Origin: an uncultured Verrucomicrobia subdivision 3 bacterium
GTDB taxonomy: Bacteria; Verrucomicrobiota; Verrucomicrobiia; Limisphaerales; UBA11358
NCBI GenBank assembly: GCA_903944085.1
Contig: CAJAQO010000083.1
Location: 70,590-126,552, forward strand
Direction: 5' to 3'
DNA: 55,963 bases
The number at the start of each line of letters is the position of its first letter. The first letter of the stretch is position 1. The translations under genes and the position numbers were made by a program. Shown here one piece after another: positions 12,806 to 26,498 of the stretch. A model generated the notes under the pieces. That model saw only the letters and a list, made by a program, of their open reading frames with translations, was not told where the DNA came from and did no database searches.

Positions 12806-13038
12806 TTGGCGGCGTTGATTATAGCTGTGACCAAGTTGGTCTGCGGCCCGTTCAGCCGCTTGATTTGCTGCTGCTCCAGCAGTTTCACCTCGCGGTGCAG
12901 GCGGATCACGGCGTTGCTTTCGACGCTGATTAAAATCATCATAATCGCAAGCAGCGCGATGAAAATTACCGTCGCCATGCCGCGCTCGCGAATTTCCGCT
13001 TTCCGCTTTCCGGTTTCCGCTTTTGAAAATGTTTTCAT
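12802..13038 (-). CDS. Short GspK/PilX-like pilin-type protein
   Basis: A 78-residue protein. A short basic N-terminus ends in RERG, followed by a hydrophobic helix MATVIFIALLAIMMILISV and a soluble helical tail. The RG-MA junction before the helix resembles the prepilin peptidase site of GspK/PilX-type minor pilins, but the large globular GspK domain is absent. The start (ATG at 13038) overlaps the stop of the previous gene as ATGA. Bases 12992-13022 in its 5-prime coding part are a heptamer tandem repeat (TTTCCGC units on the plus strand) and encode the basic segment AETGKRKAEI. This suggests the repeat has been captured in frame. Confidence 0.6.
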   Translation of the reverse strand: MKTFSKAETGKRKAEIRERGMATVIFIALLAIMMILISVESNAVIRLHREVKLLEQQQIKRLNGPQTNLVTAIINAAK

Positions 13039-17985: not shown

Positions 17986-18016
17986 AATGAGTTTCCTTGC
18001 GTCGTCTCCTGCCACC

Positions 18017-18059
18017 AAAAAAAGTGGCCGGAACGGTTGTCCGTTCCGGCCTTGGTTTT
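18017..18059. terminator. Strong bidirectional intrinsic terminator
   Basis: A perfect 11-bp stem (18026-18036 pairing with 18041-18051, arm GGCCGGAACGG) encloses a 4-base loop TTGT. On the minus strand it is followed by a run of seven T (complement of 18017-18023), and on the plus strand by TTGGTTTT. It is placed to end transcription of the Fn3-like gene at 18122. A further degenerate heptamer patch (TTCAGCT/TTCCGAT-type units) follows at 18073-18116. Confidence 0.88.
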
Positions 18060-18121
18060 GGCCAGCCTGCTGGATTCTGATTTCAGCTTTCCGATTTCAG
18101 AATTTCGGCTTTTGCCTTTGG

Positions 18122-18775
18122 TCAGTCCACGATGCTGGAGCCGGGCATGGACCAGTCGCTTTGACCGGTGCTGCCGCCCAGCGCCCGGGCGCGCACCTGA
18201 TACACCGTGCCGGTGGTCAGACCGGTCAGCGGAATGGTGCGGGCTTGCGACCAGTATTTGACGGTCGTCCACGCGCCCGTGCCGGTGCAGATCTGCACCT
18301 CGTAGCCAAACGCATTGGCCACGGTGGTCAGGTGCACGTCCAGCTCCGTGGAAGTGTCGTTGTCAATGCCTGTGATGGACGGCGTGTCCAGTTTCGACTG
18401 GCTGCGGTTGGTGCTCATTGGCACGAAGCCGGAGGTGAATATCAGATCCTGGTCGAAACGGGCGACCGTCTGCACGTAGAACGCTAGCGAATCCAGACCC
18501 TCGATCACCGCCGCCAAGGCCACATTTCGCGCCGTCAACGCCAGTTGGCCGCCATCCAGATAATTCTTGATGGCAACCTGCAGCGCCGTGATGCGCGTGG
18601 TCATGTTCACGGGAGCGGTCGGGTCGGGCGGCACCGCCGGTGCCAGCGGGACTGGCGGCTTGTTGAAAACCGCGCTTCCCGTCAGGCAGGTGACGACCCA
18701 CCCCGCAAAGGGCGGGACCGCCTCCACCGGCAGCTTTTTATAGCCCAAGCTGACTCGATATACTAATTTTTTCAT
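18122..18775 (-). CDS. Fibronectin type III-like protein of unknown function
   Basis: A 217-residue protein without an obvious signal peptide. Residues 1-30 (KKLVYRVSLGYKKLPVEAVPPF) and a proline-rich linker precede a helical region. The C-terminal half, from about 125, looks like one fibronectin type III domain: SKLDTPSITGI opens it and TGLTTGTVYQVRARALGG is the typical YxVRVRA strand. The ATG at 18775 has an AAAGG ribosome binding site nine bases upstream, rare in this window. The gene sits alone between a strong terminator and a twin hairpin, like a small insulated cassette. Fn3 domains mediate binding; the partner is unknown. Confidence 0.65.
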   Translation of the reverse strand: MKKLVYRVSLGYKKLPVEAVPPFAGWVVTCLTGSAVFNKPPVPLAPAVPPDPTAPVNMTTRITALQVAIKNYLDGGQLALTARNVALAAVIEGLDSLAFYVQTVARFDQDLIFTSGFVPMSTNRSQSKLDTPSITGIDNDTSTELDVHLTTVANAFGYEVQICTGTGAWTTVKYWSQARTIPLTGLTTGTVYQVRARALGGSTGQSDWSMPGSSIVD

Positions 18776-18877
18776 AATGAACCTTTCGGTTGATGGTTGA
18801 TAAAAATCGGTGCCATCTGGAGGAAGCCACCCGGCTTCGCGCGGCACCGTGTTATGCCCGGTTCAAATGCACTTGCC

Positions 18878-18932
18878 ATGCCGGAAACGGCATTTTAAAA
18901 AAACTGTAAGTGCTGCAAAAGCACTTACAGTT
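18878..18932. terminator. Back-to-back hairpins, probable two-way terminator
   Basis: Hairpin 1 has arm ATGCCG (18878-18883) and a GAAA loop, then CGGCAT (18888-18893), followed on the plus strand by TTT. Hairpin 2 has a 13-bp perfect stem (18902-18914 with 18920-18932, arm AACTGTAAGTGCT) and a 5-base loop. On the minus strand it is followed by a run of seven T. Each hairpin therefore has its U-tract on opposite strands. The element is upstream of the Fn3-like gene and would shield it from read-through from the right. Confidence 0.7.
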
Positions 18933-19043
18933 GCCCTTGAATGTGAATTTTTAACAGGGGCTTCGGGAGCAGGGACATGGCCAAAATCACTGTGCCAGAT
19001 CGTCGCGCCGCGCGGATTTTTCCGCGCACAAAAATCTCAGCGA

Positions 19044-19326
19044 GACGGTAAGAAAACGGGACAAGACGGTAAGACACTGGCGCGATTTTACCGACAAACA
19101 CCGCGAGACGGTAAGAAAACATCGCGCGCTTACCGTCTTGCGCCACGCGACGGCAAGCAATCGTCACGAAATTACCGTTTCACGTCGCGAGACGATAAGA
19201 AAACACCGCGAGCCTGGCGTCACGCGCCGTGAGATGGCAAGCAATCGTCACGAGCTTATCGTCACGCGGGACGAGACGGTAAGAAAACACCGCGAAATTA
19301 CCGTCACGCGGCGCGACATTGCCGTC
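19044..19326. repeat. 42-bp periodic array of alternating inverted half-sites
   Basis: GACGGTAA-type octamers start at 19065, 19107, 19149, 19191, 19233 and 19275. Reverse-complement TTACCGTC-type octamers start at 19088, 19130, 19172, 19214, 19256 and 19298. The spacing is exactly 42 bases throughout, with a fixed 15-base gap inside each pair and 11 bases between pairs. An extra direct half-site lies at 19044 and an extra inverted one at 19319. The 15-base inner segments alternate between a GAAAACACCGCG type and a GCAATCGTCACG type, giving an 84-bp higher-order repeat. Because 42 is a multiple of 3, open frames across it show 14-residue repeats, but none has support as a gene. It is not a CRISPR array: the gaps are not unique. 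Confidence 0.85.
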
Positions 19327-19559
19327 TTGTCGCCCAAATTCCTTCTCCGCATCGGATGGGGAAGGTGGCCGCAGGCCGGATGCCCGTCAACCCACAAGGC
19401 CCGTGTCTGCCAAGGCGCGGGAACTACTTCAAGGCCAACACAACGGACGCCCGGTCTGGATTCGTTCACCCAACCCGATGATACCAGAGTTGGTTTTCAT
19501 AATTATGATAACGATGTTGATAGTGAAATTTGCGATTATTTTGTTTGGTCGCTAAGTCG
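19327..19559. other. Non-coding-looking stretch with a weak peptide-like fragment
   Basis: No gene is supported here. In one plus-strand frame around 19404-19473 the translation contains AKARELLQGQHNGRPVWIRS. This vaguely recalls the RPVWIRSP motif that precedes small helix-turn-helix (excisionase-like) proteins in some Verrucomicrobiota, but no such domain follows. The segment from about 19485 is distinctly AT-rich compared with its surroundings. It may be decayed sequence. Confidence 0.3.
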
Positions 19560-19975
19560 GTGAAGGTGGATGCGGCGAATGAGCTGCTTTGCTCAAAGCA
19601 AATGTAGAAGGAAGAATGCAGAAACTTTCAAGCCGCTGCCCATCGCCGCCAGTCGGACGGTGAAACTGGGCGGGACGGTAGCCACGGTGGGTTTGCAAAA
19701 GCAAATGATGAAGTTTGAATGATGAATGAAGAAATAAAACGGCAACCGGCTCGCGACGGAGTTAATTCATCATTCATCCTTCTACATTCATCATTTCCCC
19801 GCCGTCGCTGCCGGAGAATGTGAATTACGCGGTGAAAAGCAGCCGGCTTTTGAGCTTCCTGGAATCGGTGCCGAACGTGGACGCGAAACTGAAAGAGCCG
19901 AATACGAAGGATGAAGCGTTTGAGGAGGTGGTCAAGTCAGCGCAGGAGGCGGCCGTTCTTGTTCTCGTTTATTGA
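19560..19975 (+). pseudogene. Decayed trypsin-like (S1C) serine protease gene
   Basis: Three fragments of one protein lie in order but in three different frames. 19560-19589 encodes VKVDAANELL. 19624-19689 encodes FKPLPIAASRTVKLGGTVA followed by TVGL. 19802-19975 encodes LPENVNYAVKSSRLLSFLES and ends AAVLVLVY before a stop. These match, in order, the strand before the catalytic Asp region, the strand before the substrate loop, and the C-terminus of Verrucomicrobiota trypsin-2/S1C-type peptidases. The section that would hold the catalytic Ser is missing. The junctions carry heptamer-type repeats (19597-19624, 19703-19735, 19763-19799), the last two as inverted arms. The remnant cannot make an active protease. 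Confidence 0.75.
19703..19799. repeat. Inverted heptamer repeats inside the protease relic
   Basis: The left arm (19703-19735) is built of units such as GATGAAT and GAAGAAA. The right arm (19763-19799) is built of TTCATCA, TTCATCC, TTCTACA and TTCATCA. They are imperfect reverse complements and flank a GC-rich loop of about 30 bases. The element replaces the part of the protease gene that should encode the GNSGG serine region. Confidence 0.7.
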
Positions 19976-20072
19976 ACACCAAGGAACGAAGGAACAAAGT
20001 TTTGCCGGCTTGGTTGCTTTGTTTCTTTGCTGTTAAAACCACAAGCCGGCGGCGGTGCTGGCTTATTGATTT

Positions 20073-20981
20073 TTACGCCTTCAAAAAATAATTCCGCTGC
20101 TTCTCGCTGATGGGCATTGCGAGTTTTTCCATCGCGGCCAGCATGTCTTCCCAGACGCGGCGCTTCTCGCTCATCGCCTGGTTGCGCAGCAAATACGCCG
20201 GATGATACGTCGGCATGAGCGGCGTGCCGCGATACGTCTGCCAGTTCCCGCGCAGCTTGGTGATGCCGACGGTTTTGCCGAGCAAGCCTTCCACCGCCGT
20301 CGCGCCGAGCGCCACGATGACCTTGGGCCGGATCAAATCAATCTGTTCGTGCAAAAACGGAATGCATGTCTGCATTTCTTCCGGCGTGGGCTTGCGGTTG
20401 CCGGCGGACTGACCCGGCGTGTCCGGCCGGCATTTCAAAATGTTGGCGATGTAAACGTCCGCGCGTGTAAGCCCGGTGGCCTGGATGATTTTCGTAAGCA
20501 ACTGTCCGGCTTTGCCGACGAATGGCTCGCCTTGTTCATCTTCATCCGCGCCCGGCGCTTCGCCGACGAACATCAATTGCGCGTCAATGCTGCCCACGCC
20601 GAAAACAACATGTTTGCGCGACGACGCGAGGTGCGGACATTTCACGCAGGCCAGCGCGCGTTCGCGCAGCGCGGCGAAAGCGGCTATTTTTTCCATTGCG
20701 GATTGCGGATTGCGGATTGCGGATTGTGGCAAAGGGTTGCTGGCAGCTTCGGACGGAACCGGCGCGGTCAACTTTTTCGCCGGCGCGAAAACCGGAGTTT
20801 CCGTTTTGGCGACCGGCGGCGCGGGCGTTTTCGCAATTGGAAATTGGAAATTGGAAATTGGAGATTGCGCCAGCGCCCGCAAGGTTTCCGGCGCGACGGC
20901 GACATGGCGCACGCCGCGCGCTTTCAGGTTTTCGAGGTGCTGAATCGTGGCACCAAGCAGTTCGTTGTAGGGCGCAGGCAC
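20073..20981 (-). CDS. Family 4 uracil-DNA glycosylase (4Fe-4S) with repeat-derived linker
   Basis: A 302-residue glycosylase that removes uracil from DNA. The iron-sulfur cysteines are C112, C115, C184 and C206. The catalytic GEAPG motif is at 140-144, DEQGEPFVGKAGQLL follows, NILKCRP is at 180-186, and the DNA-intercalating MPTYHPAYLL motif has H260. The catalytic domain starts near residue 97. Before it lies an unusual linker of about 60 residues, rich in Ala, Pro and Lys. Two stretches of that linker are read from heptamer tandem DNA repeats: PISNFQFPI (41-49, DNA 20834-20868) and QSAIRNPQSA (86-95, DNA 20695-20728). The start is GTG at 20981; no better ATG is in frame. It is divergent from the GH2 gene. 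Confidence 0.9.
   Translation of the reverse strand: MPAPYNELLGATIQHLENLKARGVRHVAVAPETLRALAQSPISNFQFPIAKTPAPPVAKTETPVFAPAKKLTAPVPSEAASNPLPQSAIRNPQSAMEKIAAFAALRERALACVKCPHLASSRKHVVFGVGSIDAQLMFVGEAPGADEDEQGEPFVGKAGQLLTKIIQATGLTRADVYIANILKCRPDTPGQSAGNRKPTPEEMQTCIPFLHEQIDLIRPKVIVALGATAVEGLLGKTVGITKLRGNWQTYRGTPLMPTYHPAYLLRNQAMSEKRRVWEDMLAAMEKLAMPISEKQRNYFLKA
20695..20868. repeat. Two heptamer repeat tracts inside the uracil-DNA glycosylase gene
   Basis: 20695-20728 is GCGGATT repeated about four times, and 20834-20868 is GGAAATT repeated about four times. Each tract is read in frame in the gene's linker. Three heptamers equal 21 bases, so the encoded peptide also repeats every seven residues without breaking the frame. 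They are the least degenerate heptamer tracts in the window, which suggests recent origin or expansion. Confidence 0.85.
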
Positions 20982-26404: not shown

Positions 26405-26498
26405 GAATGAAGAATGAAAAATGAAGAATGAAGAAGCTTCTTCGCCGAACCCGCGCCGGTTTTTATTTCTTCATTTTTCATTTTGCCTTCCTCATTTG
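26405..26498. repeat. Inverted heptamer repeats between fliQ and fliR
   Basis: The left arm (26405-26440) consists of GAATGAA/AAATGAA units. The right arm (26465-26498) is its imperfect reverse complement with TTCTTCA and TTTTTCA units. A GC-rich loop lies between. In the operon mRNA this would form a long stem between fliQ and fliR. It is one of only two sizeable gaps in the 15-kb operon. Confidence 0.8.

Follow-up and report, generated by a model that had tools for sequence, protein, structure and literature searches.

The window, that is, the whole stretch of 55,963 nucleotides analysed here from an uncultured Verrucomicrobia subdivision 3 bacterium, contains a tandem array of short inverted repeats, which is 283 bp long and is followed, after 268 bp, by a downstream gene on the minus strand that encodes 217 amino acids. 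The features of the locus are listed below, with the evidence for each in parentheses.

19044–19326, no strand assigned: array made up of 14 half-units, each of 21 bp (direct reading, periodicity, dyad symmetry, homologue on contig C285)
18776–19043, minus strand: 268-bp spacer separating the array from the gene, with a hairpin and a sigma54-like motif in it (direct reading)
18902–18932, minus strand: terminator-like hairpin (13 pairs, T run) oriented like the gene and located between the array and the motif (terminator scan)
18868–18884, minus strand: sigma54-like -24/-12 motif, GG-N10-GC, weak when taken alone here (p 0.04) and stronger at other loci of the gene family (motif scan)
18122–18775, minus strand: downstream gene, 217 aa from the ATG, in a frame open to 18847 (ORF, Pfam, structure, paralogues, relatives)

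The array consists of seven GACGGTAA-type and seven TTACCGTC-type half-units in the order ++-+-+-+-+-+--. Sites of the GACGGTAA type start at 19065, 19107, 19149, 19191, 19233 and 19275, and those of the TTACCGTC type at 19088, 19130, 19172, 19214, 19256 and 19298, both in steps of 42; partner sites are offset by 23, with gaps of 15 and 11. One extra plus site (19044) and one extra minus site (19319) each lie 21 bp beyond these two series, which brings the basic step to 21 bp and the number of half-units to 14. The first-pass annotation had described the 42-bp series, the offset and both gaps correctly, and missed the two outer sites. It had also proposed an 84-bp super-repeat, detectable as autocorrelation at lags of 42 and 84 bp. 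Identity within the array is 0.40 at a lag of 21 bp, 0.64 at 42 bp and 0.70 at 84 bp, compared with 0.15–0.28 at control lags of 19, 20, 22 and 23 bp, and Tandem Repeats Finder returned periods of 42 and 84; the 84-bp order is real, though slight. Across the 56-kb window, the array is the sole stretch that passes a test for 21-bp periodicity. Its agreement with its own reverse complement is 0.57, whereas column-permuted versions have a mean of 0.42–0.44, and the observed value was reached by one of 200 permutations of 21-bp units and by none of 200 permutations of 42-bp units. The window also harbors 7-bp tandem repeats (12993–13023, 20695–20726, 20835–20867 and 26405–26435), and similar ones are present elsewhere in the genome.

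The protein encoded downstream is predicted to consist of a helical N-terminal domain and an Fn3-like C-terminal half. It matches Pfam fn3 with an E-value of 0.0019 and 18.8 bits, below the 25-bit cut-off, which is passed by two of the three relatives scanned (one of them at E 8.7e-8). AlphaFold2 on 23 sequences (mean pLDDT 90, pTM 0.60) predicted the helical N-terminal domain together with a beta sandwich. The 50 fold matches listed, from a total of 462 in the PDB (E<=0.001), are Fn3-containing chains, judging by their titles, and none of those listed is to the N-terminal domain. Searches of NCBIfam and PHROGs yielded weak or sub-threshold matches alone. In some members of the family, the gene is preceded by, or fused to, a short segment rich in Trp (TWDGKDAQGKPLxWDxPGLTWDG type) (L040, L055, L057, L072–L084 (gene starts)).

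A paralogue of this gene, 93% identical in protein and 95% in DNA, exists on contig C285 of the same genome, and it too is accompanied by an array of 14 half-units. The two arrays agree without gaps at 232 of 291 positions (80%), although an aligner may place one compensating pair of gaps; the spacers to the genes agree at 225 of 257 positions, with eight gap events. Consensus columns have been kept in 153 of 168 cells, as against 43 of 84 cells in the other columns, and units agree on average at 32.7 of 42 positions in register versus 31.6 of 42 out of register. The kept consensus columns, the turnover of the others and the weak register suggest that units of the two arrays have been exchanged or have drifted, while their count remained constant.

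The gene family is represented by at least 12 copies in the genome of the window, by members among relatives, in 21 of 59 genomes, and by 33 loci in named MAG records. These records are labelled mostly as Verrucomicrobiota, some just as 'bacterium' and a few otherwise (Klebsiella pneumoniae, Acidobacteria), as given in the records. We compiled a set of 56 loci, in which the duplicates L032, L033, L034, L035 and L052 were replaced by L062, L065, L063, L068 and L067; fragments and partial matches (L025–L029, L049, L085–L090 and L092–L094) were excluded, and L018, which has an internal stop in the gene, was retained along with the truncated or rearranged loci L044 and L053. One fixed test detected a 21-bp-periodic array upstream of 45 of the 56 genes and downstream of 4 of 55. 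Upstream counts for other unit lengths between 15 and 30 bp were 7 of 56 at 28 bp and a single one at 15 bp and at 18 bp; all other lengths gave zero. The 11 misses comprise two loci with a 41-bp period (L031 and L050), one with its array 1.9 kb off (L079), three with 300 bp or less upstream (L043, L046 and L064) and five without an array (L044, L053, L066, L067 and L068). Thirteen remoter members (L095–L098, L100–L102 and L104–L109), set apart from this count, include seven with a 21-, 42- or 44-bp array; among the thirteen, L108 has 251 bp of upstream sequence.

The arrays have mostly locus-specific sequences: by blastn at 1e-4, 20 of 990 array pairs are similar, and the units of different loci are mostly unrelated. 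The first-pass annotation had raised the possibility of a local duplication only. This does not hold for the type of array, which recurs across the family, although a DNA search located the particular unit sequence of the window array in just two of the 59 genomes, its own included. The same annotation had overlooked the association with a gene family whose members mostly have an array upstream. No DNA similar to the window array is contained in 72,556 plasmid records, from which a distant family member obtained two matches with 36% coverage, and none of 18 pattern matches in viral contigs encodes a relative of the family. At L113, a gene of the AraC-type HTH adjoins an array. A 120-aa ORF near another array (L019:2080-2442) appears Cas9-like by eye and is without a Pfam match.

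It had been suggested that the array could be a decaying gene for a protein with 14-residue repeats, and a short gene for 7- or 14-residue repeats would be a related explanation; we regard either as very improbable. At least one stop-free frame exists in 39 of 45 arrays, where column permutation leads one to expect 32.3 +/- 2.6, with 646 stops as against 968, and the window array as delimited in this test has one such frame. The column-permutation null alone had thus hinted at coding. However, stop trinucleotides number 669 compared with the 650 expected from dinucleotides, so there is no depletion, and the dinucleotide count explains why stop-free frames are common. The periods of 41 bp (L031 and L050) and 44 bp (L096 and L100) are off the codon step. 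Furthermore, the arrays of L019 and L038, from different species, are 83.5% identical over 260 positions and are set apart by an exact 21-bp unit and by one base, and their substitutions are distributed 14/14/15 over the codon phases. On the basis of these periods and indels and the lack of codon phasing, the coding repeat was rejected. The arrays are non-coding and gain or lose whole units, and a conserved coding gene, which the first-pass annotation had set against a DNA element, is not what the relatives show. Other homologous pairs (L077/L083, L072/L073, L075/L082 and L040/L083, 63–74% identical) contain several gaps of 1–4 bp, and thus the indel-free relationship between the window and C285 arrays is not general.

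Dyad symmetry was assessed in 43 of the 45 arrays, L045 and L065 being too short, and was accepted where 5 or fewer of 200 column permutations, with 21- or 42-bp units, reached the observed value. Beyond permutation of their own columns, 36 of the 43 Fn3-linked arrays are self-reverse-complementary. By the same measure, symmetry is present in 6 of 8 arrays of the genome G292, 2 of the 9 further arrays in the window's own genome, 2 of 8 mostly coding 21-bp repeats and 1 of 28 arrays linked to wHTH genes. These counts indicate that the symmetry marks the Fn3-linked class and some others, and not any 21-bp repeat. Dyad mismatches are more often G:T than A:C in 20 of the 25 arrays of the window's genus (raw counts, uncontrolled for base composition); over all arrays there are 1144 G:T and 995 A:C mismatches, with 27 versus 18 of 45 loci leaning either way.

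That the arrays might be confined to Fn3-type genes was disproved by the wHTH-linked arrays and by further arrays in a sample of the window's genome. In 1,057,328 bases of this genome, a sample that includes the window, counts an overlap of about 18 kb twice and draws on contigs partly picked for known hits, 19 stretches pass the 21-bp test: six at Fn3-type genes or fragments, three at wHTH genes, one plainly coding repeat and nine at neither gene family, some of them between convergent genes. A multi-copy family of ArsR-like wHTH genes (Pfam HTH_20/HTH_5) has a direct-repeat array of 21-bp units directly upstream at 28 of 32 loci, a set in which L193 and L178 share one array and the upstream sequence of L184 and L188 is limited to about 300 bp. 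The unlinked arrays L141:15376-15730 and L146:18694-19038 have a TTGCGACGG unit in common, and the latter directly precedes a PAS/histidine kinase gene; TTAAGTC units are found at both L145 and L018. Other genomes vary. In G001, from the window's genus, 324 kb yielded a single 21-bp stretch, which looks like a coding repeat, and G076 has 13 in 400 kb, of which 11 lie in frames that are open throughout or nearly so. G292 has eight strong arrays (0.70–0.95) in 351 kb, which are nearly uniform and occupy varied intergenic places; one of them is in a fully open frame and the others have long open stretches. The positions are as follows.

L124:1321-1570; L150, L151, L153–L156, L177–L202: wHTH gene family, with 21-bp direct-repeat arrays just ahead of the gene at 28 of 32 loci
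L110:16135-16572, L145:11658-12082, L123:14835-15118: arrays between convergent genes, without an adjoining Fn3-type or wHTH gene
L245:8273-8750, L248:812-1206, L249:14610-15063, L250:17098-17526: G292 arrays
L252:310-942, L255:5391-5782, L257:7872-8376, L262:10016-10476: further G292 arrays

Between array and gene, a sigma54-like motif (p<=0.05) is present at 22 of the 56 loci, where about three are expected. It belongs mainly to the window's genus (20 of 31 loci, against 2 of 25 others); outside the genus a general link to sigma54 found no support, though the arrays persist there. The distance from array to motif ranges roughly from 40 to 470 bp, which suits an enhancer. Terminators in the sense of the gene were predicted between array and gene at 12 of 43 loci (3.6 expected), many of them weak or overlapping the promoter motif, and antisense terminators at four (4.7 expected).

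The function of the array is inferred, as are the binding of a protein, the role of this protein as a regulator and the direction of its action. The array may be a helically phased row of dyad protein-binding sites that controls this gene, a tentative reading to which we give somewhat less than an even chance. It would then be a cis-acting DNA platform, with dyad sites for a putative dimeric DNA-binding protein whose spacing of two helical turns places every one of them on the same side of the helix. From a variable distance it would control the Fn3-type gene, and within the window's genus this control would probably involve looping to a promoter of the sigma54 type. The geometry persists while the letters change, presumably through exchange between units and joint drift of site and binder. 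A dimeric protein at every second turn of one face accounts for the step and the dyads as well as for the columns that were kept, and half-units of 41/2 and 44/2 bp fit two turns as well. The proposal of the first-pass annotation of a protein-binding array on one DNA face gains support, because the two-turn step and the dyads recur at many loci with unrelated units; its interpretation as a whole is partly supported. Several observations speak against an operator. Nine of the 19 arrays in the genome sample are at neither family, and two of these nine are dyadic. The private units of most arrays would call for many different binders, or for a single one that recognises shape; sigma54-activator domains number only 16 in the window's genome and only three in the array-rich G292. 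The G:T lean in 20 of 25 arrays of the genus would suit RNA.

The two-turn step and the one-face geometry would also serve an architectural role, in which phased dyads nucleate a nucleoid-like or partition-like filament or set the shape of the DNA and the next gene is not specifically regulated. Arrays between convergent genes and at other genes agree with this, as does the resemblance of the 42-bp unit to sopC of the F plasmid, but the strong upstream bias to one family (45 of 56 against 4 of 55) does not, and mostly locus-specific sequences would be odd for a single filament protein; we consider this role unlikely. The excess of sense terminators together with the G:T lean leaves room for a transcribed array, that is, an RNA of repeated hairpins that is ended by a terminator before the gene and acts as a small RNA or leader. 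The window has a strong hairpin with a T run between array and gene, antisense terminators show no such excess, and G:T mismatches outnumber A:C ones in 27 of the 45 arrays, within the genus in 20 of 25. However, the overall difference (1144 versus 995 mismatches; 27 versus 18 loci) and the quality of many of the 12 terminators, weak or lying over the promoter motif, tell against transcription. In a search of positions 18000–20000, Rfam gave two sub-threshold rows, neither inside the array, and none at the curated gathering score, which also tells against it. A transcribed array seems to us quite improbable.

The exact gain or loss of a 21-bp unit between L019 and L038, the weak register of units between the paralogous arrays (32.7 versus 31.6 of 42) and the near uniformity of several G292 arrays are also what would be seen if 21-bp units spread and were homogenised by slippage and unequal exchange as a functionless, neutral minisatellite. 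Against such an origin, the same step recurs with unrelated sequences, dyads exist in the Fn3-linked class and are lacking in the wHTH-linked class, and the arrays are biased to the upstream side. We judge a neutral minisatellite distinctly improbable.

Several known systems resemble the arrays in part. In enhancers of sigma54 promoters, dyad sites stand ahead of a -24/-12 promoter, at a distance that is flexible and in dependence on the helix face. At 22 of the 56 loci the array dyads, too, lie upstream of a sigma54-like motif, at varying distances, but the arrays have far more sites, strictly in tandem, with a private unit per locus, and they are retained where the motif is scarce. Iterons and partition sites (sopC, for example) are tandem units of about 20–43 bp in helical phase with inverted repeats, and the array units are of comparable length, helically phased and inverted; unlike those elements, the arrays are spread over numerous loci of the chromosome, each of which has a unit of its own, and no Rep/Par-type gene was recognized by eye in the ORFs around the window array. 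REP elements and BIMEs are intergenic palindromes, in alternating orientation in BIMEs, and REPs share one sequence over many loci. The arrays are likewise intergenic palindromes in alternating orientation, whereas their unit is strictly tandem and mostly specific to its locus (the exact pattern at two arrays of the genome; 20 of 990 pairs). Bacterial minisatellites also have intergenic tandem units; in the present arrays, a single step and the dyads extend over unrelated sequences and go with a gene family. TIGR arrays (TIGR-Tas) are reported to adjoin a gene and to have repeats that are conserved within a locus, vary between loci and are palindromic in some clades (PMC12045711). The present arrays share these traits, with a step of 21 or 42 bp rather than the 36-nt guides of TIGR arrays (PMC12045711). 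A TIGR-like guide array was discarded, the genome of the window, a draft 95.9% complete, having no match to the Nop domain (PF01798).

Searches of an open-access library, by titles and abstract openings, turned up no description of such arrays, which are apparently a type of DNA control element as yet undescribed. We view the array as a variant of the tandem binding-site array, and there is a real chance that it forms a class of its own. A broader proposal, which is rather doubtful at present, is that Verrucomicrobiota possess a class of cis-elements whose conservation lies in their geometry rather than in their sequence. Mostly private two-turn arrays at multi-copy gene families, dyadic at Fn3-type genes and direct at wHTH genes, would then be locus addresses that co-evolve with their own protein or RNA reader, so that paralogues are controlled apart. 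Any genome can be scanned for the signature of 21-bp periodicity upstream of genes, in its dyad or its direct form. Should the arrays be RNA-based or architectural, they would still be a frequent and apparently undescribed intergenic element in a poorly studied phylum. If paralogues each own a mostly private, fast-changing operator whose geometry is fixed, spacing and symmetry would be under selection and the letters would drift. This, if true, would be an unusual form of gene control in bacteria, and would account for the separate regulation of members of large paralogous families.
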